Shown here piece by piece: positions 13,154-61,761 of a DNA stretch of 64,000 nucleotides. Position 1 is the stretch's first letter. The number at the start of each line of letters is the position of its first letter. The translations under genes were made by a program, and so were the position numbers. The notes under the pieces are model-generated. The model saw nothing but the letters and a program-made list of their open reading frames with translations. It had not been told where the DNA came from and did no database searches. Source of the DNA: Catenulispora sp. EB89 (GTDB lineage: Bacteria; Actinomycetota; Actinomycetes; Streptomycetales; Catenulisporaceae); the NCBI RefSeq assembly GCF_041261445.1, contig NZ_JBGCCU010000014.1:62001-126000 (forward strand), in the 5' to 3' direction.

Positions 13154-13379
13154 GATCTGCCGGCCACGGATCTGCCTGCCAGCCACCGGTCTGCCCGCCA
13201 GCTACCGACCTGTCTGCCCGGCTACGGATCTGCCTGCCGGCCACCGATCTGACCGCTGGCTACCGGTCTGACCGCTGGCTACCGGTCGGCTTGCCGGCTA
13301 CCGATCTGACCGCCGGCCACCGGTCTGCCTGTCGGCTACCGATCTGACCGCCGGCTACTGACTGCTCTGCCTACCGGCC
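13154..13379. repeat. 19-bp tandem repeat array at a convergent junction
   Basis: Nine consecutive units of exactly 19 bp run from 13189 to 13359 (typical unit GATCTGACCGCCGGCTACC), flanked by degenerate copies from 13154 and to about 13379. A 19-bp period is not a multiple of three, so it cannot encode a protein repeat. The array fills nearly the whole gap between the convergent CDF and thioredoxin genes and starts 13 bp after the CDF stop. The unit core TGACCGCCGGC resembles the CDF stop-codon context TGACCGGCCGGC. Confidence 0.93.
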
Positions 13380-16537: not shown

Positions 16538-16558
16538 GACCGGGAAGTGAGAGCGCCG

Positions 16559-19856: not shown

Positions 19857-19928
19857 CGAATCAGAGGCCGAATCAGGCGCCGAATCAGGCGCCGAATCAG
19901 GCGCCGAATCAGACGCCGAATCAGACCC
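19857..19928. repeat. 12-bp tandem repeat containing the stop codon of the adjacent gene
   Basis: Six units of 12 bp (consensus CGAATCAGGCGC). Read on the minus strand each unit is TTC GGx xxC TGA, i.e. Phe-Gly-Val/Ala/Leu-stop. The real stop of the minus-strand gene (19921-19923) is in the last unit, so the final four codons including the stop have been duplicated in frame five more times downstream. Any ribosome reading past one stop meets another after three residues. Confidence 0.93.
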
Positions 19929-21643: not shown

Positions 21644-23296
21644 ATGCCGACATATCTGTCGCCGGGCGTCTACGTGGAAGAGGTCGCCAGCGGCTCGCGG
21701 CCGATCGAGGGCGTGGGCACCTCGGTCGCGGCCTTTGTCGGCCTCGCGCCGCGAGGGGCCCTGAACGCGCCGACGCTGGTCACCAACTGGTCCCAGTACG
21801 TCGCCGAGTTCGGCGAGTTCACCGAGGGCTACTACCTGGCCCATTCGGTGTACGGGTTCTTCAACAACGGCGGGACGACGGCCTACGTGGTCCGCGTCGG
21901 CGGTGTCGAGGGCGGCCTGGCCGGCCCGGGCGCCGTGGACGGGGGCAACGGCCGGGCCGTCAGCTCCGGCCACCGGGGCGTCGTGACCGGCGCCGAGCGC
22001 CAGGCCCTCACCGCCGGCGAGCCGGTCGCGCTGGGCGGCTTCAAGGTCACCGCGCAGCCCGGCGCCGCCGGCCAGGTCACGGTCGAGGTCACGGACGTGC
22101 CGGCCGGCGAGGGCGGCGGCGACAAGGGCGGCGACGCGGCGGACCGCTTCCGGCTGCTGGTCAAGGTCGACGACAAGGTCGCAGAGACCTTCGACGTGTC
22201 GGCGAACAAGAAGGCCGGCCGGTCGTACGTCACCACCCAGGTGCGCGAGCGTTCGAAGCTCATCATCGTCGAGGAGGCCGGTTCCGGGACCCTGGCCCGG
22301 CCGGACAACCAGAGCGTGGCGGTGCCGGTCTCGGCCGCGTCCGCGGGTGGCAGCGCTGCCGGCGGCGACGCGCCGTCGTCGGCCCCGGTGTCCACCGGCT
22401 CCTACATCGGCGACTCCGCCGACCGCACCGGCTTCGGCGGCCTGGAGGCCATCGACGAGATCACCATGGTCGCGGTCCCGGACCTGATGTCCGCCTACCA
22501 GCAGGGCACGATCTCCGAGGAGGAGGTCAAGGCGGTCCAGACGGCGCTGATCGGGCACTGCGAGCTGATGGGCGACCGGGTCGCGATCATCGACCCGCTG
22601 CCGAACCTCAACGCCCAGCAGATCCGCACCTGGCGCCAGACCGGAGCCGGCTACGACTCGCACTACGCGGCGATGTACTACCCCTGGATCCGGGTCTTCG
22701 ACCCGGCCGTCGGCAAGTCGATCGCGGTCCCGCCCAGCGGCCACATGGCCGGCGTCTGGGCCCGCAGCGACGCCGAGCGCGGCGTGCACAAGGCCCCGGC
22801 CAACGAGATCGTGCGCGGCGCGGTGGACCTGGAGCTGCAGATCACCAAGGGCGAGCAGGACCTGCTCAACCCGATCGGCGTGAACTGCATCCGCGCCTTC
22901 CCCGGCCGCGGCATCCGCATCTGGGGCGCCCGCACCCTGTCCTCGGACCCGGCGTGGCGCTACCTGAACGTGCGCCGCTACTTCAACTACCTGGAGGAGT
23001 CGATCCTCAGCGGGACGCAGTGGGTGGTCTTCGAGCCGAACGACCAGGCCCTGTGGGCGCGCGTGCGCCGCAACATCTCGGCGTTCCTGGTGAACGAATG
23101 GCGCGGCGGCGCGCTGTTCGGCTCCCGCGCCGAGGACTCGTTCTACGTCAAGTGCGACGAGGAGACCAACCCCCCGGAGTCGGTGGACGTCGGCCGGGTG
23201 ATCTGCGAGATCGGCATCGCCCCGGTGAAGCCCGCCGAGTTCGTGGTGTTCCGCCTCGCGCAGATCTCCGGCGGCGGCAGCGAACTGGAGGAGTAG
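21644..23296 (+). CDS. CIS contractile sheath protein
   Basis: 550 residues from ATG 21644 with GGAG 9 nt upstream. MPTYLSPGVYVEEVASGSRP is the near-universal N-terminus of phage-tail-like sheaths (Afp2-4/Pvc2-4). The C-terminal half (from ITMVAVPDLMSAYQQGTISE onward, including NPIGVNCIRAFPGRGIRIWG, ARTLSSDPAWRYLNVRR and SFYVKCDEETNPPESVDVGR) is the conserved core that forms the contracting helix. Residues ~100-240 are an inserted surface domain rich in Gly/Ala/Asp. Only one sheath gene is present, unlike Afp/PVC which have several, and like Streptomyces CIS. First gene of the structural operon. Confidence 0.96.
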   Translation: MPTYLSPGVYVEEVASGSRPIEGVGTSVAAFVGLAPRGALNAPTLVTNWSQYVAEFGEFTEGYYLAHSVYGFFNNGGTTAYVVRVGGVEGGLAGPGAVDGGNGRAVSSGHRGVVTGAERQALTAGEPVALGGFKVTAQPGAAGQVTVEVTDVPAGEGGGDKGGDAADRFRLLVKVDDKVAETFDVSANKKAGRSYVTTQVRERSKLIIVEEAGSGTLARPDNQSVAVPVSAASAGGSAAGGDAPSSAPVSTGSYIGDSADRTGFGGLEAIDEITMVAVPDLMSAYQQGTISEEEVKAVQTALIGHCELMGDRVAIIDPLPNLNAQQIRTWRQTGAGYDSHYAAMYYPWIRVFDPAVGKSIAVPPSGHMAGVWARSDAERGVHKAPANEIVRGAVDLELQITKGEQDLLNPIGVNCIRAFPGRGIRIWGARTLSSDPAWRYLNVRRYFNYLEESILSGTQWVVFEPNDQALWARVRRNISAFLVNEWRGGALFGSRAEDSFYVKCDEETNPPESVDVGRVICEIGIAPVKPAEFVVFRLAQISGGGSELEE

Positions 23297-23425: not shown

Positions 23426-23869
23426 ATGGGTTTGATGAACGGCGACTCCGCCGCCGCGCACAATTTCGCCCTCCAGATCGACGGCGTGCAGGTCGAGTAC
23501 CTGGCCGAGGTCGGCGCGCTCCAGCTGGAGCAGGACGTGATCAAGCACGTGCAGAACAACCCGCAGGGCAAGCCGATCGTCCGGATGATGCCGGGCATCT
23601 CCCAGGGCGGCACCGTGTCGGTGACCCGCGGCCAGACCCAGAGCTCGTCCTTCACGAACTGGATCAACGAGTCGCTGGCCGGGAACATGGGCTCGGCGCG
23701 CAAGAACGCGACGATCATCTACATGGACTACATGAACAACCCGATCAAGCGCTACGACCTGCGCAACGCGTGGTGCTGCAAGGTCGAGACGGCCGGCACC
23801 AAGGCCGGCGAGGCCCAGGTGCTGACCGAGCAGGTCACGATCACCTTCGAAGAACTGGTCATCGCCTGA
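23426..23869 (+). CDS. CIS inner tube protein
   Basis: 147 residues, ATG preceded by AAGGA. The sequence follows the Afp1/Pvc1/T4 gp19 tube fold: AHNFALQIDGVQVEYLAEVG, MPGISQGGTVSVTRGQTQSS, FTNWINESL and the end EQVTITFEELVIA. Hexameric rings of it stack to form the rigid tube that the sheath drives forward. The next gene's ATG overlaps its TGA (TGATG). Confidence 0.95.
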   Translation: MGLMNGDSAAAHNFALQIDGVQVEYLAEVGALQLEQDVIKHVQNNPQGKPIVRMMPGISQGGTVSVTRGQTQSSSFTNWINESLAGNMGSARKNATIIYMDYMNNPIKRYDLRNAWCCKVETAGTKAGEAQVLTEQVTITFEELVIA

Positions 23870-24444
23870 TGAAGCGCTCGCTCCCGGGGGCCGCGACGGC
23901 GGCCCCGGCGGTGCCGGCGCAGGCCGCCGCGGTTTCCGGGGCGGTTTCGGGCGCGGTGCCCGGGGTCGTGGACGGCGGCGGGACGGCGGTCGCGGTGGCC
24001 GAGGGTGGCTTTGCGGCTGCTGCCGCCCCTGGCTCTGCTCCCGTTTCCGCCTCTGCTCCCGCCCGCGTCGACACCCTCCGCACGGAATTCGACTTCGAAC
24101 TCCCGCGCGGCTACGTCGACGACGCCGGCACGGTCCACCGCCGCGGCACCATGCGCCTGTCCACGGCCCGCGACGAACTCGTCCCGCTGCGCGACGTCCG
24201 CGTCCGCGAGAACCCGGCGTACCTGTCGGTGGTCCTCCTCGGCCGCGTGATCACCCGCCTGGGCACCCTGCCGATGGTCCACGACGGCATCGTCGAGAAC
24301 ATGTTCGCCTCCGACCTGGCATTCCTCCAGGACTTCTACGAGCAGATCAACGCCGAAGGCCACACCCTGGCCTCGGTGACGTGCCCGAACTGCGCGGAGG
24401 ACTTCGAGATCGACCTCGGCGGGAGCCGCCTGGGGGAATCGTGA
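23869..24444 (+). CDS. CIS tail-assembly protein with half zinc ribbon
   Basis: 191 residues. The first ~65 are Ala/Gly/Val-rich and probably disordered. The folded part (from FDFELPRGYVDDAGTVHRRG, through MRLSTARDELVPLRDVRVRE and NMFASDLAFLQDFYEQINAE) matches the small phage-tail-assembly protein found next to the tube gene in actinobacterial and other CIS loci. The final VTCPNCAEDFEIDLGG has a single CxxC that could bind metal with a second subunit. Probably a chaperone or connector for tube assembly; role inferred from position. Confidence 0.8.
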   Translation: MKRSLPGAATAAPAVPAQAAAVSGAVSGAVPGVVDGGGTAVAVAEGGFAAAAAPGSAPVSASAPARVDTLRTEFDFELPRGYVDDAGTVHRRGTMRLSTARDELVPLRDVRVRENPAYLSVVLLGRVITRLGTLPMVHDGIVENMFASDLAFLQDFYEQINAEGHTLASVTCPNCAEDFEIDLGGSRLGES

Positions 24445-24596
24445 CGTACGCGGCCGACCAGCTCCGCGACGAGGTCGCGTACGTCGCCTACCACTTCCAC
24501 TGGGCCCTGGACCAGATCCTCGACCTGGAGCACGGCGACCGGCGCGACTTCGTGACCGGCATCGCCGGCCTCAACGCGCGCGCTTCGGAGGGGTGA
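24441..24596 (+). CDS. DUF6760-like small CIS protein
   Basis: 51 residues. GTG at 24441 overlaps the stop of the previous gene (GTGA). The sequence YAADQLRDEVAYVAYHFHWA followed by LDQILDLEHGDRRDFV resembles the short DUF6760 proteins that sit at this exact place in Streptomyces CIS clusters. It pairs with the CxxC protein before it, much like the paired tail-assembly chaperones of phages. The DUF number is from memory. Confidence 0.75.
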   Translation: MTYAADQLRDEVAYVAYHFHWALDQILDLEHGDRRDFVTGIAGLNARASEG

Positions 24597-24600
24597 GGGG

Positions 24601-27600
24601 ATGGGGATCTTCTCGCGGCGGGGGCGGGATGCGGCTGATGCCGATACCGCTGGCGGTGCCAGTACCGACGCCGGTTCTGATGCCGGTTCCGATGCAGGGG
24701 TGGTCGGCCCGATGGCCGACGTGAGCGCTGTTGCCGCGGGCGCAAGCGCGGCGGGCGCAAGCGCAGCATCGGCTGACTCGTCAGGTGACGTGTCGGGTTC
24801 CACGGCTTCAGCGGTCTCGTCGGTCGGAGCAGCGGTGCAGCGACGCGAGTGGGCAGCGGTCCCGACGATGCGCGGCGTCAGCCGCTCCGCCGCGGGCGGC
24901 GTGTCGGAGTTGAACTTCGGTGCGCGCCTGGCGACGTGGCAGAACCCTTCGTTCCAACGCGAGCCGCGCCGCCAGGTCCGTACGGACGCGCCGACCGGCC
25001 GCGTGGTCGCGCGCTCGATCGCGCGCAGCGGCACTCCGGCGTCGCTCGAACTCCCGGCGCTGAACCTGCCGCTGACGACGCCGGTTCAGCGCAGCGCGGA
25101 GGCGTCCGAGTCCGTGGCGATGCCTGCCGCGCCGTTGCAGTCGCTGCCGACACCGACGCCGACGCCGGTCGTACGCCAGTCGACGATCCGCAGCTCCGCG
25201 CAGCCCGTCGCACGCCCGAACCCCACGCGTACAGCCCGCCCCCGCCTGACGGAGGCGGCAGTCACGCCCCGCGTGCGACCGTTGGCGCCGATCCAGCGGG
25301 CCACGTCGCCTTCGGCCCCGCCTGCGCCACAGCCTAAGACGCCCCCCGAGACGCCGGTGGCCCAGCCTTCAGCCGCCTCAACACCGCCAGCGACTCAGCG
25401 CTCGCAATCGGGGCCGTCTGCGAACACGCGCGGCGGCATCGGCGACCCGTCGACGGTCCAGCGTGCCTCTGCGCCCGACGCGTCGCATGCCCAGCGCCCC
25501 GACTCAGCCTCGGCCGACTTCACCCTGCCCACGGTCCAACGCGCCGTCCCGTCGACCCCCCAAGCCATGCCGATCCGTGCCGTCCACCGGCGCGCGGCCT
25601 CGACGCCACCGCCTACCTCCGCACCGGACTCGCCAGCCACCGCGCCTTCGCCCACGAAGTCCCCCTCCACTCCGCCTGCCTCCTCACCCGCCACACAGCG
25701 CGTGCCTGATGTGCAGGTACAGCGTGCTCCCGCTTCGGACACGCGTGCCCCGGTGCGCCTGAACACCTCGCGACCGGCGTCCCCCACCCCAACGACGTCG
25801 ACGAGGCCACTGCTCGGCTCACGCCAGCTCTCCGGCTTCCCCACCCCCGAGACACCGCCATCGAGCACCGGCGCCACCCGACGCGAGCCGGTCCGACCGA
25901 TCTACAACCGCCCGCACAACACCTCCGCTTCAGGCGCACCAACCGCCGACCCGCCACCATCGCCCCAGCCAACCGCCACCACCGGCGCGATCCAGCGCTC
26001 GGCATCAGCCGCGCCGACCGGCACGGCGACCACTGGCGGCACACAGGCCGGCACCGGCTCAATCCAGCGCGCCTCCGCCAGCCCGATGGAACACTCGGCC
26101 ACAACCTCGCCGAGCTCCGCTTCGACCGGCGCGGGCTCCCAGCCCAGTCCTGGCCCGAATCAGCGCACGGCATCGGCCTCGCCAGGCGGTGCTGGTGAGC
26201 CGACCGGTGTGGCCTCGGGTCCCGTCCAGCGCTCGGCATCGAGCTCGCCAGGCGGTGTTGGTGAGCCGACTGGTGTGGCCTCGGGTCCCATCCAGCGTTC
26301 CGCATCGGCCTCGGCAGGTGGTGTTGGTGAGCCGACTGGCGTGGCCTCCGGTCCTATCCAGCGCTCGGCATCGGCCTCGGCAGGCGGTGCTGGTGAGCCG
26401 ACTGGTTTGGCCACCGGTCCCATCCAGCGTTCCGCATCGACCTCGCTAGGCGGCGCTGCTGAGTCGGCCAGTGCGGCCTTCGGCCCGACCCAGCGCTCAG
26501 CTCCGGCCTTGCCGGGCTCCGGTCCGACCGGCGCGGGCTCGCAGGCTGGCTCTGGCGCGGTCCAGCGTTCCGCGTCGACCTCGCCAGGCAGCGCTGCTGA
26601 GTCGACTGGTGCCTCCTCCGGCCAGTCCCAGCGCTCAGCTGCGGCCTTGCCGAACTCCGGTGCGACCGGCGCGGGCTCGCAGGCTGGTCCCGGCCCGATT
26701 CAGCGTTCGGCATCGACTTCGGCAAGCAGCGCTGCTGAGTCGACCGGTGCGTCCTCCGGCCAGTCCCAGCGCACAGCGATGCCGAGCGCTGGCTCGATCC
26801 AGCGTTCGGTATCGAGTTCGCCAACGAGCGCTGCTGAGTCGACCGGTGCGTCCTCCGGCCAGATGCCGAGCGCTGGCTCGATCCAGCGTTCCGCGTCGAG
26901 CTCGCCAGCGAGCGCTGCTGAGTCGACCGGTGCGTCCTCCGGCCAGTCCCAGCGCTCAGCTGCGGCCTTGCCGGGCTCCGGTGCGACCGGCGTGGGCTCG
27001 CAGGCTGGTCCCGTCTCGATCCAGCGCTCTGCCACAGGCTCGCCGATCTCTGATTCCACCAGCGGCTCGGCGGTCCCCGCTGGCTCAAGCGCCCGGCCGA
27101 CTCCTGGGCTGAGCGGGGGCTCGGCAGCTGGCCCGTCGGCGTCCGCAGGATCTACCGGTGGCGCGGGACAAAGCCTGTCGGCGTCCGCTGGCCCGATCCA
27201 GCGTTCGGCCACATCCTCAGCCGCACCGATCCGACGCGTGGCCCGACCCGTCCCGACCACCGCCGCGATCGAGCGCTCGGGCACGCAGGGGCCTGGCTCG
27301 ATGGAAGGTCCGGCAGCGACGTCGATCCAGCGTTCGGTGACGGTGGCTGGTTCGCACAGCTCCGGCCAAAGCGGTTCTGTCGCGGGCTCGCAGGCGCCTG
27401 GCCAGACTGGCGGTTCGACAGCAGCCCCCGGGCCGGTCCAGCGTTCGGTGAATGCTCGGCCCACCCCGATTCGGCGCCTGGCAGCGGCCTCAACCAGCAC
27501 GCCGTCGATCGCCGCGCTGATTCAGCGCGCGGCGGTCGCACCCGCCAGCCAGGCATCTGACTCGCTTAGCCGCTCGGGAGGTTCCCAGCTGTCGTCCGCT

Positions 27601-28314
27601 TCGGGCATCGGCCCCGGCGGAGCACCCGGGCCTGCCACGCCAGCAGTCGGCCCGGCCGGAGCAGTCCGCCACGCCGCACCAACAGCTGGTCCCGTCGCGG
27701 CGCTCGGGCGCGCAGTCCCGGCAGCCAGCCCCACCGCCGGAGCACCGACACGCCCCGCCCCCGCATCCAGCCCCACCCCGGCCCGCATCCAGCGAGCCGT
27801 CCCCGTCCACCGCCCCGCCGCGCCGGCGACCGCGCGCCTGCCCCTCCCGATGGCCTTCCGTGCGCCGGCCCCGCCGCCGCCGGTGCAGCGTGCGCCGATG
27901 GCCTCCTTCCTCGCCGACGCGGTCAGCGACCAGGCGCGCGACACTCGGCAGCGGCTCAACGACACCGTCGGTGACCAGGTCGGGGGCTTCAGCGACAAGA
28001 TCGCCGATGTTCGGGACGCTGCCGCGCTCATTCGTGATCCGTCGCAGTTTCGGCAGGTCGTCAAGCAGCGGGGGTTGGACATGCTCGCCGAGTCCAATCC
28101 CGTTGCCGGGACGTTGTTCGGGTACCGGCGTACCGAGCAGGAGTCCGGCTCCGGGGCGCGTGGCGGTGGCTCCGGACGGAACCGGGGCCGCGGCGAGCAC
28201 CAAGAGATGGAACAGCTCGCCGAGAAGCTGGTCGCGCCGCTGGCCCGGCTGCTTCGCACCGAGTTGCGCATGGACCGCGAGCGGACGGGGCGCCTGCGTG
28301 ACTCAGGACGTTAA
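24601..28314 (+). CDS. Giant QR-repeat protein of the CIS cluster
   Basis: 1237 residues, ATG after a short GGGG ribosome site. Layout: disordered N-terminus (1-80); a short conserved-looking block (~80-150) with MRGVSRSAAGGVSELNFGAR and LATWQNPSFQREPRRQV; a ~900-residue Ser/Ala/Pro/Thr/Gly tract with more than 25 copies of hydrophobic-Gln-Arg (VQRS, IQRS, IQRA); and a helical C-terminal domain (~1095-1237, FLADAVSDQARDTRQRLNDT to LARLLRTELRMDRE). Part of the tract is true tandem repeats (see 26161-27021). Position fits the tape-measure slot, but composition is unlike known tape measures. Function unknown; it could set length, scaffold assembly or hold cargo. Confidence 0.85.
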   Translation: MGIFSRRGRDAADADTAGGASTDAGSDAGSDAGVVGPMADVSAVAAGASAAGASAASADSSGDVSGSTASAVSSVGAAVQRREWAAVPTMRGVSRSAAGGVSELNFGARLATWQNPSFQREPRRQVRTDAPTGRVVARSIARSGTPASLELPALNLPLTTPVQRSAEASESVAMPAAPLQSLPTPTPTPVVRQSTIRSSAQPVARPNPTRTARPRLTEAAVTPRVRPLAPIQRATSPSAPPAPQPKTPPETPVAQPSAASTPPATQRSQSGPSANTRGGIGDPSTVQRASAPDASHAQRPDSASADFTLPTVQRAVPSTPQAMPIRAVHRRAASTPPPTSAPDSPATAPSPTKSPSTPPASSPATQRVPDVQVQRAPASDTRAPVRLNTSRPASPTPTTSTRPLLGSRQLSGFPTPETPPSSTGATRREPVRPIYNRPHNTSASGAPTADPPPSPQPTATTGAIQRSASAAPTGTATTGGTQAGTGSIQRASASPMEHSATTSPSSASTGAGSQPSPGPNQRTASASPGGAGEPTGVASGPVQRSASSSPGGVGEPTGVASGPIQRSASASAGGVGEPTGVASGPIQRSASASAGGAGEPTGLATGPIQRSASTSLGGAAESASAAFGPTQRSAPALPGSGPTGAGSQAGSGAVQRSASTSPGSAAESTGASSGQSQRSAAALPNSGATGAGSQAGPGPIQRSASTSASSAAESTGASSGQSQRTAMPSAGSIQRSVSSSPTSAAESTGASSGQMPSAGSIQRSASSSPASAAESTGASSGQSQRSAAALPGSGATGVGSQAGPVSIQRSATGSPISDSTSGSAVPAGSSARPTPGLSGGSAAGPSASAGSTGGAGQSLSASAGPIQRSATSSAAPIRRVARPVPTTAAIERSGTQGPGSMEGPAATSIQRSVTVAGSHSSGQSGSVAGSQAPGQTGGSTAAPGPVQRSVNARPTPIRRLAAASTSTPSIAALIQRAAVAPASQASDSLSRSGGSQLSSASGIGPGGAPGPATPAVGPAGAVRHAAPTAGPVAALGRAVPAASPTAGAPTRPAPASSPTPARIQRAVPVHRPAAPATARLPLPMAFRAPAPPPPVQRAPMASFLADAVSDQARDTRQRLNDTVGDQVGGFSDKIADVRDAAALIRDPSQFRQVVKQRGLDMLAESNPVAGTLFGYRRTEQESGSGARGGGSGRNRGRGEHQEMEQLAEKLVAPLARLLRTELRMDRERTGRLRDSGR
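26161..27021. repeat. In-frame 66-bp and 72-bp tandem repeats inside the QR-repeat gene
   Basis: Five 66-bp units (22 residues, QRSAS...GEPTGVASGPI type) lie at 26161-26490. Then 72-bp (24-residue, QRSAALPxSGATGAGSQAGP type) and 66-bp (22-residue, QRSASxSxxSAAESTGASSG type) units alternate to 27021 as a 138-bp higher-order repeat, with one contracted region at 26767-26883. All changes keep the frame. Copies are similar enough in DNA for slippage or recombination to change their number. Confidence 0.93.
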
Positions 28315-28441: not shown

Positions 28442-28879
28442 ATGACCACCGCCACCCAGGACCCCGGCTCCAGCCTGTTCTTCAAGCTGACCATCGACGG
28501 GCAGGACCTCGGCCTGTTCAACCAGTGCGAGGGCCTGACCGCGGAGGTGGAGGTCTACCAGCACAAGGAGGGCGGCAACAACGGCTACACCACCTACCTC
28601 CCGGGCCGGGTCAGCCACGGCAACATCACGCTTATCCGGCCCCTGACGCCGGACAGCAGCAAGATCGCCGCGTGGATCTCCTCCATCGCCACCGGCATCC
28701 AGCGGCCGACGGCGCAGATCGCCGCCTTGCGCGCGGACGGCTCGTTGGTCGTGCAGTGGGGCCTGCTGGACGTCCTGCCGGTCAGCTGGAGCGGCCCGAC
28801 GCTGGACCCCACCTCCAACACCGTGGCCACCGAGCGGCTGGTCATCGCCCACCACGGCTTCACCGAATCGGGAGCGTGA
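28442..28879 (+). CDS. Second tube-like CIS protein (tube initiator type)
   Basis: 145 residues, ATG with AAGGA. SLFFKLTIDGQDLGLFNQCE followed by GLTAEVEVYQHKEGGNNGYT is the tail-tube-family pattern of Afp5/Pvc5-type proteins, which make the first tube ring on the baseplate. It differs clearly from the main tube protein at 23426. The next gene begins within its last codon (GTGA). Confidence 0.9.
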   Translation: MTTATQDPGSSLFFKLTIDGQDLGLFNQCEGLTAEVEVYQHKEGGNNGYTTYLPGRVSHGNITLIRPLTPDSSKIAAWISSIATGIQRPTAQIAALRADGSLVVQWGLLDVLPVSWSGPTLDPTSNTVATERLVIAHHGFTESGA

Positions 28880-29598
28880 TCCGCGTGTCCTCGCAGCCCG
28901 GAGTCAGCCTCGTCAAGGCCTCGCTCACCATCAAGGAACCGCCGATCGGCCCGGCGCTGGAGCCCGGCGGCACCATGCGGGAGATCAACTTCCAGTTCAA
29001 CCCGGAGACGCTGACGCTGGCCAAGAGTGCCAACTGGAGCAGCACGCCGCTGCCCCTGTTCAAGTACGTCAGCATCCCCAGCTTCGGCGGCGCCGATCCC
29101 TACACCCTCTCCTTCCAGCTCTTCCTCGACTCCTCCATGACCCCGGCCGGCACCAAGGTCCAGGACGACGTCGAAGCCCTCCTGAAGTGCTGCGAGGTCA
29201 CCGACCAGTCGATCGCCGCCTTCCAGCCCTCCACGCCGTGGGTCTTCTTCCAGTGGGGCAGCTTCTCAACGGTCAGTTTCAACGCATATGTCCAGAACAT
29301 CTCTGCTAACTACACGTACTTCGACCCCTCCGGAGTTCCCCTCCGGGCCACCTGTGATCTGACGATCACTCAGATCCCGTCGCTCACCCTGGGTCAGAAC
29401 CCGACGTCCGGCGCGCTGTCCGCGCACCGCTCGCACCGCGTGCGCGCCGGCGACACGCTGCAGTCCATGGCCTGGTCCGAGTACGGCGACGCCACCGCCT
29501 GGCGCACCATCGCCGAGGCCAACGAGATCGACGACCCGATGCGCCTCACGCCCGGCCACGAACTGCTCATTCCCGCCCCCGACCAGGTAAGGCGGTGA
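28876..29598 (+). CDS. LysM-containing baseplate protein (Afp7/Pvc7 type)
   Basis: 240 residues from GTG 28876. The N-terminal ~170 residues have NFQFNPETLTLAKSANWSST, the fold of the baseplate hub adapter in CIS and R-type particles. The last ~50 residues are a LysM-like domain: SHRVRAGDTLQSMAWSEYGD, TAWRTIAEANEIDDPMRLTP and GHELLIPAP. In these proteins the LysM binds baseplate partners rather than peptidoglycan. Gene order before the spike matches Afp and PVC. Confidence 0.9.
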   Translation: MIRVSSQPGVSLVKASLTIKEPPIGPALEPGGTMREINFQFNPETLTLAKSANWSSTPLPLFKYVSIPSFGGADPYTLSFQLFLDSSMTPAGTKVQDDVEALLKCCEVTDQSIAAFQPSTPWVFFQWGSFSTVSFNAYVQNISANYTYFDPSGVPLRATCDLTITQIPSLTLGQNPTSGALSAHRSHRVRAGDTLQSMAWSEYGDATAWRTIAEANEIDDPMRLTPGHELLIPAPDQVRR

Positions 29599-29605
29599 CG
29601 CGACA

Positions 29606-31588
29606 GTGAGTTTCGGCTCCTTCTCCTCGGTCCCCAAGGTCGAGATCGGCGGCGCGCTGCCCCGGCTCCTGAAGGCCTCCCTGGACTCCTGCTGGGTGGA
29701 GTCCAGCCTCAATGTGCCCTCCACGTTCCACATCGCCTTCAAGGACAAGACCCGCCTGCTGATGTCCCTCTACGGGCAGCTGAAGATCGGCGCCCCGGTG
29801 ACCGTCTTCGCGGTGGCCGGGCTCATCGGCGAAGACCAGCCGCTGATCACCGGCCAGGTCACCGGCATCGAGGCCGACTACTCCGGCGGCGACTTCTACA
29901 CCGTCATCCGCGGCATGGACCACGCCTTCAAGCTGCTGCGCAAGCGGCGGGTGGCGTTGTACAAGAACATGTCCGCCTCCGACATCGTCCGCCAGGTGGC
30001 CGGTTCGCACGGGGTGTCGATCGGCAAGATCGAGTCCACGCCCCCGCCGCCCCCGGACTCGCAGACCTCGCAGCCCAACATCGACGACTGGACCTTCATC
30101 CAGGGCCTGGCCGAGCGGGCCGGCAAGGTCGTGTACTTCGACAACATGGGCCTGCTGCACTTCCGCGCGCCGGTCAAGGCCGTGCCGCTGGCCGGCGTGA
30201 GCGCCGACAAGAGTCCCTACGTGCTGGAGTTCGGTGCCAACACCCTGCGCTGCCGCTCCGGCTTCACCGCCGCCGACCAGGTCTCGATGGTCACCTCGCG
30301 GGGCTGGAACATGGTCACCAAGCAGACCCTGGTCGGCCGGGCCCCGGCGGTGGAGAACCCCGACGTGCTGGCCGGGCTGATCCCGGGGCAGGTGTCCTCG
30401 CCGTTCGGCACCGGCACCCTGGTCGAGACCGGTACCCCCTACGTCAGCCAGACCGAGACCGACTCCGCCGCCAAGTCCCTGGCCACCGACGTCACCTCCT
30501 CGTTCGCAGAGCTCGAAGTCGCCGTCCGGGGCACGCCGCAGCTGCTGCCCGACAAGTCCGTCACCCTGACCAAGGCCGGCACGCCCTTCGACGGCGCCTA
30601 CACCGTCACCGGCGTCCGGCACGTGTTCGAGCAGGGCACGTACGAGACGTGGGTGTCGATGACCGGCCGCCAGTTCCGCTCCCTGTACGGCCTGGCCTCC
30701 GGCGGCGCAGGCGGCGCCGGCGGTCCGGGCGGCCCCGGCGGCACCGGGCACCGCATGAGCGGCGTGGTCAGTGCGATCGTCACCGACATCCACGACCCGC
30801 TGCGCATGGGCCGGGTCAAGCTGCGCTTCCCCTGGCTCGACGACGACTACGTCAGCGACTGGGCCCGCACCGTGCAGCACGGCGGCGTCAGCGCCGAGGG
30901 CGGCATGGTCCCCAACGGCGGCGGCGCCGGCGGCCACATCCCGGCCGGCGCCCCGGGCTCCGGCGGCTTCATCGGCTACGCCGTCAACGACGAGGTGCTG
31001 GTCACCTTCGACCGCGGCGACTTCGACCAGCCCTACGTCCTGGGCGGCCTGTACAACGGCGTGAACAAGCCCACCAAGTTCACCGTCGACGACCTGGTCT
31101 CCCGGGACGGCATCCCGAACGTCCTGGCCGTGTCCTCCCGGCGCGGCCACCGGCTGGAGCTGCTCGACGACGACTACGCCATGAACGCCGGCGTCAAGCT
31201 CCTGACGAACGACGGCGAGCAGCTGGTCCATCTGGACAAGATGGAGAACGAGATCGGCGTCAAGAACACCTCCGGCAAGATCACCATCGAGAGCCGGACC
31301 CCGGTCGGCGGCGTCACGATCCGCGCCGGCAGCGCCAGCATCACCCTGACGCCGGAGGGCGCGGTGACCATCGACGGCGCCGCCGAGGTCAGCATCAGCG
31401 CCGGCGCGGCGATGTCGCTCAAGGCGCTGGAACTGAACCTGGCCGCGGCCACGACCACCGTGGAGTCCGCGGAGATCAACTTCACCGGCGCCTCGCTGTC
31501 CGTGGAGGCCGCCGAGATCACGCTGACCGGCAACGTCGCCATCGTCGGCGAGGGCACGCTGGACGGCCAGCAGATCCTGGCGGTCTGA
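29606..31588 (+). CDS. CIS spike (VgrG-like, gp27-gp5 fusion)
   Basis: 660 residues from GTG 29606. Residues 1-~340 are the gp27-like hub (FYTVIRGMDHAFKLLRKRRV, NIDDWTFIQGLAERAGKVVY); a Gly-rich hinge (~362-380) leads to the gp5 OB domain (HRMSGVVSAIVTDIHDPLRM, GRVKLRFPWLDDDYVSDWA), then a beta-helix from ~560 (GAASITLTPEGA-like ladder). The tip lacks a lysozyme or toxin extension. The trimer forms the central spike at the tube end. No PAAR gene follows it, so how the tip is sharpened is unclear. Confidence 0.94.
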   Translation: MSFGSFSSVPKVEIGGALPRLLKASLDSCWVESSLNVPSTFHIAFKDKTRLLMSLYGQLKIGAPVTVFAVAGLIGEDQPLITGQVTGIEADYSGGDFYTVIRGMDHAFKLLRKRRVALYKNMSASDIVRQVAGSHGVSIGKIESTPPPPPDSQTSQPNIDDWTFIQGLAERAGKVVYFDNMGLLHFRAPVKAVPLAGVSADKSPYVLEFGANTLRCRSGFTAADQVSMVTSRGWNMVTKQTLVGRAPAVENPDVLAGLIPGQVSSPFGTGTLVETGTPYVSQTETDSAAKSLATDVTSSFAELEVAVRGTPQLLPDKSVTLTKAGTPFDGAYTVTGVRHVFEQGTYETWVSMTGRQFRSLYGLASGGAGGAGGPGGPGGTGHRMSGVVSAIVTDIHDPLRMGRVKLRFPWLDDDYVSDWARTVQHGGVSAEGGMVPNGGGAGGHIPAGAPGSGGFIGYAVNDEVLVTFDRGDFDQPYVLGGLYNGVNKPTKFTVDDLVSRDGIPNVLAVSSRRGHRLELLDDDYAMNAGVKLLTNDGEQLVHLDKMENEIGVKNTSGKITIESRTPVGGVTIRAGSASITLTPEGAVTIDGAAEVSISAGAAMSLKALELNLAAATTTVESAEINFTGASLSVEAAEITLTGNVAIVGEGTLDGQQILAV

Positions 31589-31589
31589 G

Positions 31590-31676
31590 ATGAGCGACCT
31601 GACTGTGAGCGGCCCGACCACATCAGACCCGACCACAACAGACCCGACCACAAGGGGCCTGATCCGCCATGGGTGA
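31590..31676 (+). CDS. Possible 28-residue peptide between spike and gp25 genes
   Basis: ATG 31590 opens a short frame, MSDLTVSGPTTSDPTTTDPT, that ends at the TGA inside the start of the gp25 gene. It is built from a 15-bp repeat (CCCGACCACAWCAGA) in three copies. No ribosome site is seen, so it may be a coupling frame rather than a gene. Confidence 0.25.
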   Translation: MSDLTVSGPTTSDPTTTDPTTRGLIRHG

Positions 31677-32103
31677 GCGATTCGTCGGCTCCGGCTGGGG
31701 CTTCCCGCTGCGCGTGGACGCCGGCGGCCGCATCGGCCTGGTCTCCCACGACCAGGAGATCGAGGAGGCCATGCGCCTGGTCCTGGCCACCGCGCCGGGG
31801 GAGCGGCCGATGCGCCCGGAGTTCGGCTGCGCCGTCCACGACCTGGTCTTCGCCCCGGTCAACGACAAGACCGTGGGCCGCATCCAGCACGAGGTGCGCT
31901 CCAGCCTGGACCGCTGGGAGCCGCGCATCTCGGTGACCGGCGTCGAGGTCAGCGTGGACCCCGACCGCCCGACCGTGCTCTACATCGACGTGCACTACCA
32001 GCTACGCGGCACCAACAACCCGCGGTCCCTGGTCTTCCCCTTCTACGTCATCCCCGACCACGAAGGACCGGGCACCGCAGCGACAGATACGGAAGCAGCC
32101 TGA
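31669..32103 (+). CDS. Baseplate wedge protein gp25/Afp9-like
   Basis: 144 residues from ATG 31669. The sequence has the GPW/gp25 pattern: HDQEIEEAMRLVLATAPGER, PMRPEFGCAVHDLVFAPVND, and VEVSVDPDRPTVLYIDVHYQ. In T4 and CIS particles this protein starts sheath assembly at the baseplate. It is followed after 1 bp by the baseplate J-like gene, so they are co-translated. Confidence 0.93.
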   Translation: MGERFVGSGWGFPLRVDAGGRIGLVSHDQEIEEAMRLVLATAPGERPMRPEFGCAVHDLVFAPVNDKTVGRIQHEVRSSLDRWEPRISVTGVEVSVDPDRPTVLYIDVHYQLRGTNNPRSLVFPFYVIPDHEGPGTAATDTEAA

Positions 32104-32104
32104 C

Positions 32105-34075
32105 ATGGCTATGCCCTCGCCGAACCTCGACGACCGCCGGTTCCAGCAGTTCGTGGACGACGCCAAGCGGTACGTCCAACAGCGCTGCCCGGAGTGGACG
32201 GACCACAACGTGTCCGACCCCGGCGTGACGCTGATCGAGGCCGTGGCCTACATGGCCGACCAGCTGGTCTACCGGCTGAACCGGGTCCCGGACAAGAACT
32301 ACCTGGCGTTCCTGGACCTGTTGGGCATCAACCGGTTCCCGCCGGCGCCGGCGCGCGCCGAGGTCACCTTCCGGCTGTCCGCACCGCAGCCGAACACGGT
32401 GCTGGTCCCGGTCGGCTCGCAGATCGCGACCCTGCGCACCGAGTCCGAGGAGGCGCTGGTCTTCAGCTCCGCCGAGCCGCTGCGGATCGTGCCGTGCGCG
32501 CTGACCGCGGTGGTGGTGCAGAACAACGGCGCCGGCCCCACCGACCGCACCGTCGACGTGCTCGACGGCAAGGACGTGCCGGTATTCTCCCCGGCCCCCT
32601 CGCCCGGCGACGCGCTGTACTTCGGCCTGTCCGCGCCGGTGCCCTCGTGCCTGGCGGTGCTGCGGCTGAGCAGCCAGGTCGACGGCGTCGGCGTGGACCC
32701 GCGGCAGCCGCCGCTGGTCTGGGAGGCGTGGTCGGCCGACGGCTGGCTGCCGTGCGAGGTGGACTCCGACGACACCGGCGGCCTGAACCGGCCCGGGGAC
32801 GTGGCCGTGCACGTCCCGTCCCGGCACATCGTCTCCCGGCTGGCCGGGATCGAGGCGGCGTGGCTGCGCTGCCGGGTGCTGGAACCGCGTCCGGCGCAGC
32901 CGTTCTACGCCGTCAGCCCGAGTCTGCGCGGCGCCACCGCGCGCACGATGGGCGGCACTGTCAGGGCCCTGCATTCCGAGGCGGTCCGGGACGAAGAGCT
33001 CGGCGAGTCCTCCGGGGTGGCCGGCCAGCGCTTCCGGCTGTCCCGCACGCCGGTCGCGGTCGACGACCCGATGCTCCAGCTCGACTCCTCCGACGGCGAG
33101 GGCTGGCAGCGCTGGGAGCTGGTCGACACCTTCGCCGGCTCCGGGCCGGAGGACCGGCACTTCCAGCTCGACCCGGTGACCGGCGAGATCGCCTTCGGTC
33201 CGGCGCTGCGGCAGCCCGACGGCAGCGTGCGGCAGTACGGCGCGGTCCCGCTCAAGGGCGTGCGGATCCGGGCCACCGCCTACCGGATCGGCGGCGGCCG
33301 GTCCGGGAACGTCGCACGCGGCGCTCTCAGTGTCCTGCGAACCTCGATCCCGTATGTTTCCAGCGTGGAGAACCGCGAGGCCGCGCGCGGCGGCGTGGAC
33401 GGCGAGTCGGTCGCCGAGGCGAAGGTGCGCGCCCCGATCTCGCTGCGGGCCCAGGACCGCGCGGTCACGGTCCGGGACTACGAAGAGCTCACCCGCCGCG
33501 CGGCCCCGGAAGCCGCGCGCATCCACTGCCTGCCGGTCGACGAGCAGACCAAGCTCAACGGCAAGGAGGCCGGGATCGGCGCGGTCCGGCTGCTCGTGGT
33601 GCCGCAGGCCGTACCGGACGTCGGCGGCTTCCTGCGCTTCGAGCAGCTGGTCCCGGGCGACGAACTGCTCAGCCGGATCGCCGCCTACCTGGACGAGCGG
33701 CGCCCGATCGGCACCCGGCTGGCCGTCGGCCCGCCGTACTACCAGGGCGTCACGGCCGCGGTGACGCTGCACGCCTTCCGCGGCGCCGAGACCGACCTGG
33801 TCCGCACCGGCGCGATCAACGCCCTGTACTCCTACCTCGATCCGCTGACCGGCGGCCCGACCGGCGGGGGCTGGCCGTTCGGCCGCGCGGTCCACTCCGG
33901 CGAGCTGTACGCGGTGCTGCAGCGGGTCCCGGGCGTGGAGATGGTCGACGAGGTGCGCCTGCACCCGGCCGACCCGCTGACCGGCAAGCGCGGCGACGCC
34001 GCCGAACGGATCGAACTGGACCCCTCGGCCCTGGTGTTCTCCTACGATCACCGGGTGAAGGTGGTGGGCGGATGA
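32105..34075 (+). CDS. Baseplate assembly protein (gpJ/Afp11-like)
   Basis: 656 residues. PNLDDRRFQQFVDDAKRYVQ, then WTDHNVSDPGVTLIEAVAYM and ADQLVYRLNRVPDKNYLAFL, is the hallmark start of the putative baseplate assembly protein of CIS loci; the later RDYEELTRRAAPEAARIHCL is the gpJ core. It forms the wedge ring around the hub with gp25 and tail-I-like proteins. One protein of this class is present, where Afp/PVC have Afp11 and Afp12 separately. Confidence 0.93.
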   Translation: MAMPSPNLDDRRFQQFVDDAKRYVQQRCPEWTDHNVSDPGVTLIEAVAYMADQLVYRLNRVPDKNYLAFLDLLGINRFPPAPARAEVTFRLSAPQPNTVLVPVGSQIATLRTESEEALVFSSAEPLRIVPCALTAVVVQNNGAGPTDRTVDVLDGKDVPVFSPAPSPGDALYFGLSAPVPSCLAVLRLSSQVDGVGVDPRQPPLVWEAWSADGWLPCEVDSDDTGGLNRPGDVAVHVPSRHIVSRLAGIEAAWLRCRVLEPRPAQPFYAVSPSLRGATARTMGGTVRALHSEAVRDEELGESSGVAGQRFRLSRTPVAVDDPMLQLDSSDGEGWQRWELVDTFAGSGPEDRHFQLDPVTGEIAFGPALRQPDGSVRQYGAVPLKGVRIRATAYRIGGGRSGNVARGALSVLRTSIPYVSSVENREAARGGVDGESVAEAKVRAPISLRAQDRAVTVRDYEELTRRAAPEAARIHCLPVDEQTKLNGKEAGIGAVRLLVVPQAVPDVGGFLRFEQLVPGDELLSRIAAYLDERRPIGTRLAVGPPYYQGVTAAVTLHAFRGAETDLVRTGAINALYSYLDPLTGGPTGGGWPFGRAVHSGELYAVLQRVPGVEMVDEVRLHPADPLTGKRGDAAERIELDPSALVFSYDHRVKVVGG

Positions 34076-34611
34076 GGGGCGCGGTCGACGGGCTCGGCAG
34101 CCCCTTCCCGCTCGGCGAGCAGCTGCCGAGCGTCTACGCCGACGACGACTTCGCGCAGCGGTTCGTCGGCGGCCTGGACGACCTGTTCGCGCCGCTGCTC
34201 TCGGTGCTGGACAACATCGCGGCCTACCTGCGGCCCGAGCTCGCGCCCCCGGACTTCGTGTCCTGGCTCGGCGGCTGGGTCGGCGCCGAGCTGTCCGGGG
34301 ACGAGTCCGACCCCGACCTGCGCGCGGCGGTGTCCGGCGCGGCCGCCATGCACCGGCACCGCGGCACCGTGCACGGCCTGGCCGAGGCCGTCCGGCTCGG
34401 CTTCGGCATCGAGCCGCGGATCACCGAGAGCGGCGGCATGTCCTGGTCGGCGCGCCCGCTCGGGCCGCTGCCCGGGGAGCCCGAGCCGCGCCTGGAGGTG
34501 CGGCTGACCGCCGCGCAGGCCCGCTCGGTCGACCTGGCCCGGCTGCAGGCGCTCGTCGCCTCGGTCCGGCCGGCGCACGTGCCGTGTTCCATCGTCGTCG
34601 AAAAATCCTGA
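34072..34611 (+). CDS. Phage tail protein I-like (CIS baseplate)
   Basis: 179 residues; ATG overlaps the previous stop (ATGA). LGEQLPSVYADDDFAQRFVG, LPPDFVSWLGGWV-like context and RHRGTVHGLAEAVRLGFGIE are typical of tail protein I of CIS clusters (part of Afp12 in other systems). It should sit on the periphery of the baseplate. No tail-fibre gene follows; instead a membrane protein comes next, which suggests attachment to a membrane partner rather than to an outside target cell. Confidence 0.88.
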   Translation: MRGAVDGLGSPFPLGEQLPSVYADDDFAQRFVGGLDDLFAPLLSVLDNIAAYLRPELAPPDFVSWLGGWVGAELSGDESDPDLRAAVSGAAAMHRHRGTVHGLAEAVRLGFGIEPRITESGGMSWSARPLGPLPGEPEPRLEVRLTAAQARSVDLARLQALVASVRPAHVPCSIVVEKS

Positions 34612-34630: not shown

Positions 34631-36076
34631 ATGTCCACCGATCTCAGTGAGCTGACCTGCCCCGACTGCGGTGCGCGCGACCAGCGGGAGGCCTTCTGCG
34701 ACAGCTGCGGTGCGGCGCTCACGCGGGCCAAGCCGGCGCCGGTCACCGTCGGCGCGGCAGCCTTCGACGAGTCGCCGGCCGAGGATTCGGCTCCGGATTC
34801 CGCCGAGAGCTCGGGTCCGAGCCGGAGCCCGAAGGCGGATCCCGGCGCGAGCCAGAGCCCGGTTCCGAGCCCGAAGGCAGAATCCGGGGCGAGCCAGAGC
34901 ACGGTCCCGAGCCAGCGCGACTCCTCGACCGCGAGTGCGAACCCGGTCGCGAGCATGGCCGCGAATCCGGTCGCATCCTTCGCCGACCGCATCGCGGCGT
35001 CCGAGTCGACGTCGACGTCGACGTCAGCGCCGACGTCAGCGCAGGCTCTGCCGACCTCTCCGGCACCCGAGCCGCAGGTCGCCGACGAGGCCGACACCGT
35101 GCCCCTGGTCGAGGTCGCCCGCGCCGCTGCCGAGAAGGCCCAGCAGGCCGCGCGCGAGCAGGCCGACGCCGAGCGCGCCGAACGGGCCCGAGCCCTGCTG
35201 GTCCCGGTCGCCGACCAGAGCGCCCCGACCGGCGGCATCCTCCCGGTCCTGCCCGGCAAGCCCGAGCCGATCGCCCCGCAGCGCAAGGGCTCCGATCGGC
35301 TGGAGGCCCTGGACGCGGGCATCGAATGTCAGTGGTGCGCGACCCGCAACCCGCCGGAGCGCCACTTCTGCCGGCGCTGCGGCCAGCGCCTGGCGTACGC
35401 GCCGGTGGAGGCGCGGCGTCCGTCGTGGTGGCGGCGGCTGATCTTCTTCTGGCGCAACCGGCCGCTGCCCTACGCCGGCCAGCGGCCCCGGCTGCGGCGC
35501 GGTCCGGGCCAGGCGATCCGGCCGGTGGTGTGGACCGCGGTGGGGGTCGTGGCGGTCGTCGTCGTGGTCCAGGAGTACAAGCCGGCCTCCACGAACGTCC
35601 GCGACCACTTCGCCAAGCCCAACGAGATCTCCAACTGGACCATCACCGCCTCGCACGAGGACCCGAACCACGCCGCCAAGCTGCTCCACGACACCTACTC
35701 CGACACCTGGTGGGGCAGCGGCTTCGCGCCGCAGAACAGCAACGGCACCAGCCTGACGGTGACCTTCACCCAGCCGGTGAACCTGCTGGACATGGGCCTG
35801 ACGCCGGGCGCCGGCACCGCCGCGGACACCTTCGGCGCGCAGGGCTCGCCGGAGACCGTCGACGCCGTGCTGATCCCGATCCCGGGCAAGGGCGACCCGG
35901 TCAGGAAGACGTTCACGCTCGACGACCAGCCCGGATTCCAGAAGCTCCAGTTGCGCGGCGACGACATCCGCCAAGTGGTGCTCACCATCACCTCGTCGTA
36001 CGAGCCCACCTCGGCCAACCCCCCGAAGGCGGTGGAGACGGCGATCACGGAGCTGGAGTTCTATACGCGCCACTGA
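34631..36076 (+). CDS. Zinc-ribbon/TM/discoidin-like membrane adaptor, CisA-like candidate
   Basis: 481 residues. Two zinc ribbons frame a disordered cytoplasmic part: CPDCGARDQREAFCDSC (~10-26) and CQWCATRNPPERHFCRRC (~234-251), joined by a Ser/Pro/Ala-rich then Ala/Glu-helical stretch. One membrane helix follows (~297-315, VVWTAVGVVAVVVVVQEY). The outside part (~330-481) resembles an F5/8 type C (discoidin, sugar-binding) domain: DTWWGSGFAPQNSNGTSLTV, SPETVDAVLIPIPGKGD. In Streptomyces a conserved CIS-linked membrane protein, CisA, is needed for firing; the architecture and place fit, but identity is inferred. Confidence 0.75.
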   Translation: MSTDLSELTCPDCGARDQREAFCDSCGAALTRAKPAPVTVGAAAFDESPAEDSAPDSAESSGPSRSPKADPGASQSPVPSPKAESGASQSTVPSQRDSSTASANPVASMAANPVASFADRIAASESTSTSTSAPTSAQALPTSPAPEPQVADEADTVPLVEVARAAAEKAQQAAREQADAERAERARALLVPVADQSAPTGGILPVLPGKPEPIAPQRKGSDRLEALDAGIECQWCATRNPPERHFCRRCGQRLAYAPVEARRPSWWRRLIFFWRNRPLPYAGQRPRLRRGPGQAIRPVVWTAVGVVAVVVVVQEYKPASTNVRDHFAKPNEISNWTITASHEDPNHAAKLLHDTYSDTWWGSGFAPQNSNGTSLTVTFTQPVNLLDMGLTPGAGTAADTFGAQGSPETVDAVLIPIPGKGDPVRKTFTLDDQPGFQKLQLRGDDIRQVVLTITSSYEPTSANPPKAVETAITELEFYTRH

Positions 36077-61686: not shown

Positions 61687-61705
61687 CCGGCTTGCGGCGC
61701 TCCAG

Positions 61706-61761
61706 GTGTCTGAGCGTCTGGGTGTCTGACCGTCTAGGTGTCTGGGCGGTCTAGGCGTCTG
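61706..61761. repeat. 16-bp tandem repeat at a convergent junction
   Basis: Units GTGTCTGAGCGTCTGG (61706), GTGTCTGACCGTCTAG (61722), GTGTCTGGGCGGTCTAG (61738, 17 bp) and a partial copy. The stop codon of the LysR gene (61751-61753) is inside the third unit, as the CTA of GGTCTAG. The convergent TetR gene stops 19 bp before the array. Confidence 0.9.

Follow-up and report, generated by a model that had tools for sequence, protein, structure and literature searches.

What fills the place of the tape measure in the contractile injection systems (CIS) of Streptomyces and other Actinomycetota? In the available text of the published accounts, the clusters of S. coelicolor and S. venezuelae are reported to lack a typical tape measure (PMC10066040), the lack of a tape-measure gene in the cluster is stated again alongside S. 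coelicolor particles that are identical, 268 nm, with 61 sheath and 60 tube layers (PMC12237407), and the gene is likewise said to be absent from the S. lividans cluster (PMC10286715). We considered this question for a 64,000-nucleotide stretch, hereafter the window, of the 11.9-Mb genome of Catenulispora sp. EB89 (contig NZ_JBGCCU010000014.1, positions 62,001 to 126,000). The window carries an extracellular CIS (eCIS) cluster in which a long open reading frame (ORF) lies between a tail-assembly-chaperone-like gene and the genes of the tube initiator and hub. We refer to its product as the slot protein.

The slot protein belongs to a conserved, syntenic family and is a component of the structural operon. 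It combines the gene position of a tape measure with a conserved C terminus, a conserved hydrophobic-Gln-Arg (QR) motif, and a composition unlike that of a coiled coil. Where the Streptomyces papers record a missing tape-measure gene, this family supplies a candidate whose gene lies where one would look for it, which opens the control of particle length to direct test. The parts of the gene, in window coordinates, are as follows.

24601..28314, + strand: QR-motif slot protein of 1237 amino acids (aa), candidate length ruler or lumen scaffold (ORF, motif statistics, synteny).
24601..24636, + strand: short basic N terminus, MGIFSRRGRDAA (start regions of homologues).
24838..25110, + strand: conserved stretch W..LPPIQR...FG.RL.TWQNPSF (alignments A3/A6).
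25087..27894, + strand: Pro/Ala/Ser/Gly/Thr tract, net positive, with most of the VQR/IQR motifs (composition).
26161..26946, + strand: tandem DNA repeats with units of 66, 138, and 84 bp, inside the tract (repeat scan).
27904..28116, + strand: helical stretch, uncertain (AlphaFold2; block predicted local distance difference test score, pLDDT, 47 to 77).
28189..28302, + strand: near-invariant C-terminal helix ...LxRLLRTELRxDRERxGRLRD (AlphaFold2, alignment A4).

The ORF starts with an ATG behind GGAGGGG. Its product contains 34 QR dipeptides, whereas 500 shuffles yielded 5.8 on average and 14 at most, and 24 occurrences of [VILMF]QR (mean of 0.75 and maximum of 4 in the same number of shuffles). 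Most are [VI]QR (23) and [VI]QR[AST] (22), while changed controls are near zero ([VI]RQ, 1; [VI]NR, 0; [VI]QK, 0). The Ser/Ala/Pro/Gly tract rich in QR that had been noted in a preliminary description of this DNA is thus confirmed; its figure of over 25 hydrophobic-QR steps is borderline, since the count of 24 rises to 25 with Ala added as a hydrophobic residue. The tandem repeats contain 12 of the 34 QR steps, and 22 lie elsewhere. When 18 other window genes were tested, the [VILMF]QR count exceeded the shuffle maximum only in the eCIS_core protein (4, with a shuffle mean of 0.32 and a maximum of 3). In CisA proteins of like loci, which also have long low-complexity linkers, the motif occurs 0.04 times per protein with 0.31 expected (n = 52).

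The enrichment extends to the whole family. In 69 nonredundant homologues the mean [VILMF]QR count is 14.6 with 0.38 expected, and 68 of the 69 top all of 200 shuffles. Across 1150 QR steps (Q at position 0), P is found at −3 in 39% and at −2 in 47%, V or I at −1 in 84%, and A or S at +2 in 62%, which gives the consensus P-P-[VI]-Q-R-[AS]. In 14 homologue pairs out of 17 candidates, the Q and R of the motif are kept at 86 and 89%, and Q and R elsewhere in the tract at 45 and 66%, a contrast that may be inflated if the alignment anchors on the motif. Motif spacing is broad (median of 56 aa), and main-clade proteins contain 5 to 27 copies, five short proteins 2 to 13. Given this spacing and count, we reject the idea that the motif marks the register of tube layers with one fixed copy for each.

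The ends of the protein are also conserved. Many homologues start with M/V-G-F-L-D-R-L-R-G, an N terminus that appears similar in character to the eCIS loading signal as described in the accessible part of PMC11297309. The conserved stretch that follows contains EWAAVP at residue 83 and FGARLATWQNPSF at residue 106 of the window protein. Homologues terminate in forms of LVHRIIGRVTRLVRTELRMDRERIGRLRDPR. The last 150 residues were modeled with AlphaFold2 from 30 sequences; the C-terminal helix occupies residues 110 to 147 of this fragment (about 1197 to 1234 of the protein), with block pLDDT of 82, 95, 93, and, for the last block, 69. Of the small ordered ends expected in the preliminary description, structure prediction, applied to the two ends, thus supports the C-terminal one with confidence, while the N-terminal stretch has no confident fold (mean pLDDT of 63). 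The helical stretch at 27904..28116 is seen in homologues of the same genus and is not recognizable in the Streptomyces rows of the alignment. A Foldseek search with the C-terminal model gave no match at E (expectation value) ≤ 0.001. Between the ends, the homologue tract comprises ~1000 residues, of which on average 71% are P/A/G/S/T and 0.7% aromatic (69 homologues); it is net positive in 65 of the 69.

Loci of the family were gathered via the tube initiator, and the ORF ending just before it was examined. A protein with the C-terminal motif occupies the slot in 123 of 133 loci of at least 6 kb. The C-terminal pattern, composed after part of the locus set had been seen, matches in 122 of them; one more (L154) was added, its variant residue having been missed by the pattern. 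The remaining 10 contigs start at most 450 bases before the tube initiator. The 133 loci include duplicates (the window and L001, two S. clavuligerus records, and some genomes twice). Among the 122, 16 ORFs reach a contig edge, and 16 of the other 106 are without the N-terminal pattern as read, several of them being short and interrupted (e.g., L051, L073, L091, L108, L131, and L142). Removal of these 32 ORFs and two duplicates before motif counts left 88 proteins, reduced to the 69 nonredundant ones by dropping sequences with at least 55% identical residues. The main clade has a length of 1218 ± 96 aa (n = 64; range, 1002 to 1486 aa), and the five short proteins have 604 to 945 aa. The view in the preliminary description that length is easily varied through tandem repeats is only partly borne out by these main-clade lengths, set beside the 5 to 27 motifs per protein.

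A profile of the C-terminal 46 residues matches 22 of 396 Actinomycetota genomes. We fetched 15 of the 22 places (five others are the window or loci already in the set, and two were left out). In all 15, the next gene after the ORF hit by the profile is tube-initiator-like, and the 12 places with enough DNA on the upstream side all have sheath and tube genes ahead of this ORF. Slot proteins of these loci contain 1 to 14 [VILMF]QR. A slot protein is also present in the Streptomyces NBC_01324 record. In S. clavuligerus the slot ORF (1383 aa; L017:7957-12108) is not annotated in NZ_CP065235.1, where a 71-aa terminal stub and an antisense coding sequence are listed instead; such omissions may be why the family has been neglected.

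Of 41 plasmid records matching the chaperone, seven were examined, those of Streptomyces NBC_01324 and Brasilonema included, besides two of S. clavuligerus. The Haloferax and Deinococcus plasmid loci have no room for a slot gene ahead of the tube initiator. In the plasmid eCIS loci of Nostoc, Paenibacillus, Paraburkholderia, and Deinococcus, the tube initiator is followed by a large ORF, the helix-like end of which, judged by eye, is similar to that of the slot protein, and the Deinococcus locus with such an ORF includes a DUF4157 protein. Kinship of these helices, suggested by eye and by alignment A7, was rejected, the C-terminal profile having no significant hit there. The large ORFs after the tube initiator in other phyla are as follows.

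L213:10000-11574: large ORF.
L215:10930-12531: large ORF.
L216: large ORF ending at 12419.
L218: large ORF ending at 16538.

Scans with Pfam, PHROG, and NCBIfam show the eCIS order in the window: sheath, tube, chaperone-like gene, DUF6760 gene, slot gene, tube initiator, LysM/CIS_tube, VgrG-like, gp25, baseplate J, Tail_P2_I, CisA-like zinc-ribbon protein, LuxR regulator, AAA+ ATPase, and eCIS_core. The neighbors of the slot gene are as follows.

21644..23296, + strand: contractile sheath (PF04984/PF17482), beginning MPTYLSPG.
23426..23869, + strand: inner tube, T4 gp19 family (PF06841).
23869..24444, + strand: tail-assembly-chaperone-like protein (phrog_508, a PHROG tail assembly chaperone family; E 1.2e-4).
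24441..24596, + strand: DUF6760 protein, 51 aa (PF20546; E 7.7e-10).
28442..28879, + strand: tube initiator, second gp19-like protein (PDB chain 9gtp_a, which would be the S. coelicolor tube initiator; E 1.9e-61).
28876..29598, + strand: LysM/CIS_tube hub protein (PF19266, PF01476).
29606..31588, + strand: VgrG-like spike (PF04717, PF05954).
31669..34611, + strand: baseplate gp25, baseplate J, and Tail_P2_I (Pfam scans).
34631..36076, + strand: CisA-like protein with zinc ribbons, a hydrophobic segment, and an NADase-type glycan-binding C terminus (domain scans), named by position and architecture (cf. the available text of PMC12237407).
37110..39884, + strand: AAA+ ATPase (PF00004).
39930..41999, + strand: eCIS_core (DUF4157) protein with four hydrophobic-QR motifs, probable cargo (PF13699; E 2.7e-25).

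Sheath, tube, tube initiator, LysM, VgrG, gp25, baseplate J and I, AAA+, and eCIS_core genes are thus found together, as in a class IId-like eCIS cluster. The chaperone-like product had no match in a Pfam search or among the phages searched. The linker of the CisA-like gene contains 42-bp tandem repeats (34806-34920), and other tandem repeats of the window lie at 13157-13371 (19/57 bp), 19857-19932 (12 bp), and 61696-61761 (16 bp). Upstream of the sheath, in reverse orientation (19921-21348, − strand), a protein with weak ricin-type lectin matches is encoded, which may be compared with the ricin-like effectors reported in S. coelicolor, Sco4257/4258. Three genomes of the same genus (G004:C246, G008:C14, and G009:C23) carry a second, divergent pair of gp19-like tube genes, possibly belonging to further contractile systems.

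Is the slot protein a tape measure? In phages, the genes follow the order tube, chaperone, tape measure, and hub, with the tape-measure gene between the tail assembly chaperone and the hub genes. The slot gene lies between the chaperone-like gene and the hub and tube-initiator genes, and this agreement of gene order supports a tape-measure position. Gene order, with phrog_508 matched by the second gene upstream, bears out the placement in the tape-measure slot made in the preliminary description, and a composition unlike that of a helical coiled coil was correctly recognized there. No homology to known tape measures was found, either with the whole protein (Pfam, PHROG, and NCBIfam) or with the C terminus (phages and, by a single peptide pattern, viral contigs). 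A long coiled coil is lacking as well: the P/A/G/S/T tract dominates the protein, and in the models of the two ends a confident helix is present only at the C terminus. The slot protein is therefore not filed in the tape-measure family.

We tentatively consider that the slot protein is a disordered chain that is anchored at the hub, points into the lumen, and takes the place of the tape measure, where it acts as a ruler or an assembly scaffold; we hold this to be quite possible. The C-terminal helix would anchor the protein at the hub (tube initiator/spike), and the long net-positive tract would run up the inner tube during tube polymerization. The protein would do the job of a coiled-coil tape measure, helping to nucleate tube growth on the hub, and may limit or define tube length. 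The P-P-[VI]-Q-R-[AS] motifs could serve as many weak docking sites for a negatively charged lumen, the hub, or eCIS_core cargo; CIS tube lumens are reported to be negatively charged (PMC8894135). We infer disorder, hub anchoring, and lumen location, while a role in setting particle length, plausible as it is, would be the most speculative part. In a specific version, which we regard as doubtful, the protein would be an entropic tape measure, with the 0.27-μm length set by a small number of disordered chains that are anchored at the hub and stretched because the lumen confines them, VQR providing weak docking to lumen or cargo. If this is true, a disordered polymer replaces the helical ruler of tailed phages.

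Relatives whose tube initiator is 99 to 100% identical to 9gtp_a have slot proteins of ~1300 to 1357 aa. About 1350 aa over 60 layers of ~4.1 nm, a layer height taken from the available AlgoCIS account, corresponds to 0.18 nm per residue in this one species group. One α helix of 1350 aa would measure 202 nm, too short for a 60-layer tube; disordered chains in a 3.6-nm lumen would extend to 192 to 332 nm for one to three chains according to a de Gennes estimate, which relies on assumed parameters and holds to an order of magnitude only. Tract length has a coefficient of variation of 8.2% (42 loci); that of CisA linker length is 25.5% (51 of 52 loci), a value that includes outliers of 62 and 572 aa.

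Several results weigh against a ruler or scaffold in the lumen. Length conservation as proof of a ruler had to be rejected. Variance per residue, calculated by hand, comes to ~8 in the tract, with ~20 in the CisA linker and a value of ~7 in the slot protein’s own N-terminal linker (64 homologues); the scaled variation of the tract is no smaller than that of its own linker, so the tract is not specially conserved. Disorder is suggested by composition, and the two simple measures disagree: the tract falls on the folded side of the charge-hydropathy boundary and on the disordered side by the mean TOP-IDP value (rescaled by hand). The disorder analysis proposed in the preliminary description is thus divided. 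Motif spacing in the homologues has no period, and the motif is sparse in some divergent slot proteins (1 in L208, 3 in L204, and 4 in L202). The whole protein has no Pfam, PHROGs, or NCBIfam match at the thresholds used, PDB sequence searches with the C-terminal helix returned nothing significant, and a phage origin was rejected because the C terminus has no relative in phage records or, by a single peptide pattern, in viral contigs.

The particle data point in the same direction. As read from its gene, the slot protein is a candidate component of the particle. The S. coelicolor slot gene would be SCO4249 by gene order, and sco4251 would be the chaperone-like gene by gene count. The accessible account of mass spectrometry of S. 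coelicolor particles includes, as proteins without known function, sco4242, sco4256, and sco4251 (PMC10020575); since sco4249 is unnamed in it, the slot protein apparently went undetected. The S. coelicolor cryo–electron microscopy model comprises nine proteins, and no name given in the available text fits the slot protein (PMC12237407). In particles from an effector deletion the lumen is described as mostly empty (PMC10066040). The slot gene is probably drawn in published cluster maps; in the accessible running text, figures and supplements aside, we found no naming of its product, and the text of PMC11126660 and PMC13277306 does not describe it. A literature search for a disordered tape measure found no such case in the available text (the tape measure of one candidate is a coiled coil), and one on disorder in actinobacterial CIS found nothing.

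The main alternative is that the slot protein is a cargo-docking scaffold, a disordered string anchored at the hub whose VQR motifs gather eCIS_core cargo or the loading ATPase, tube length being set otherwise. We consider it possible but on balance unlikely. The motif is enriched in eCIS_core ORFs, with 42 [VILMF]QR and 9.3 expected, and 11 of the reversed motif (28 ORFs, window protein included). These ORFs come from 30 loci tried, two of which were not located, and were picked by an HExxH pattern with weak family hits included; individually, only 11 of the 28 are enriched. The motif lies just before the domain in 11 of 17 located eCIS_core ORFs, compared to 0.125 per equal length elsewhere. 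The 17, one locus being counted twice, are those of 33 loci placed by a second pattern, which replaced a first one that had located only four domains (one with the motif upstream). LQRxxGN or VQR often stands shortly before DUF4157 in eCIS_core proteins (window 39930-41999 and several of L158 to L187).

Two divergent loci link slot protein and cargo more closely: the slot protein of L206 carries an eCIS_core domain (Pfam, E 2.5e-23), and that of L211 matches the window eCIS_core protein by blastp. In L208, the slot ORF has an HExxH motif only. Coelution of Sle2 (DUF4157) with the tube initiator is also reported (PMC13277306). Docking of cargo by the slot protein is nevertheless putative and read from sequence, and the 5-to-27 range of motif number in the main clade weighs against such a scaffold. 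In one 2024 study, as far as its accessible text goes, a conserved eCIS loading signal was undetected (PMC11297309).

The slot protein could also be an effector or a former effector: a Tme-like ejected protein whose eCIS_core and toxin parts were lost in this lineage, or one that works as a polycationic polymer once ejected. We judge this improbable. The eCIS_core domain in L206 and L211 fits effector ancestry, and in S. davawensis the gene of a tape-measure-related endonuclease that bears DUF4157 and is ~70% disordered lies immediately upstream of the baseplate genes, its product coeluting with hub proteins, according to the available text (PMC11126660). However, no enzyme, toxin, or membrane domain was found in the window slot protein (Pfam, PHROGs, and NCBIfam), the reported Streptomyces effectors come from other genes (PMC10066040 and PMC13277306, as available), and a variable effector would not be expected at 123 of 133 loci. 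Tme and Sle1 are both described as tape-measure-related effectors (PMC11126660 and PMC13277306). Since particles from the sle1/2 deletion are reported to be without apparent structural defects (PMC13277306), the tape-measure-like effector deleted there is unlikely to be the ruler.

In a further alternative, the P-[VI]-Q-R-[AS] motifs would be cleavage sites of a protease-processed chain, a removable assembly scaffold cut before or on firing. This motif resembles a trypsin-like site. That it immediately precedes the domain in 11 of 17 eCIS_core ORFs fits processing, and cleavage would explain why the slot protein is missing from mass spectrometry lists of particles. Against this, no protease was identified for the motif, and 5 to 27 copies of a site are unusual for a scaffold; we find such processing quite improbable. 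Finally, despite high GC content, low complexity, and one database record that annotates a stub only, a spurious or noncoding frame is virtually excluded, because homologues in Streptomyces and other Actinomycetota share its ends and gene neighborhood and show constraint on the motif.

Compared to known systems, the slot gene resembles those of phage and eCIS tape measures (λ gpH, the T5-like DT57C tape measure protein, and Afp14) in being the largest gene of the tail operon, and the slot protein may be likened to the DT57C protein, whose C-terminal end is reported to be at the hub. It differs from all of them in its Pro/Gly/Ser/Ala-rich tract without a coiled coil and in the lack of detected homology; the Afp14 gene is located elsewhere in its operon. 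According to its description, the Alg6/Afp6 plug is trimeric, is needed for assembly, and has a C-terminal helix within the spike cavity that faces the lumen. By analogy, the slot protein helix might, speculatively, play a comparable role, although the plug is small, unlike the slot protein. Homology of the helix to DUF5908, which we take to be the Afp6/Alg6 plug family, was rejected, with no match over the cutoff in 12 genomes or records. Tme (BN159_7576) of the S. davawensis CIS is, like the slot protein, reported to be large, mostly disordered, and encoded immediately upstream of baseplate genes; by description rather than by sequence comparison, it has DUF4157 and an endonuclease domain, and the window protein has neither. 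Sle1 and Sle2 of the S. lividans SLP belong to the same CIS class as the system of the slot protein, but their genes are described as reversed and upstream of the structural genes, and Sle1 is predicted to be a coiled coil. The eCIS_core (DUF4157) cargo proteins share the hydrophobic-QR motif with the slot protein; the PF13699 domain is absent from the window slot protein in a Pfam scan, whereas in the two divergent loci both are part of the same polypeptide. Through the motif common to slot and eCIS_core proteins, the way in which cargo and particle meet can be approached from sequence.

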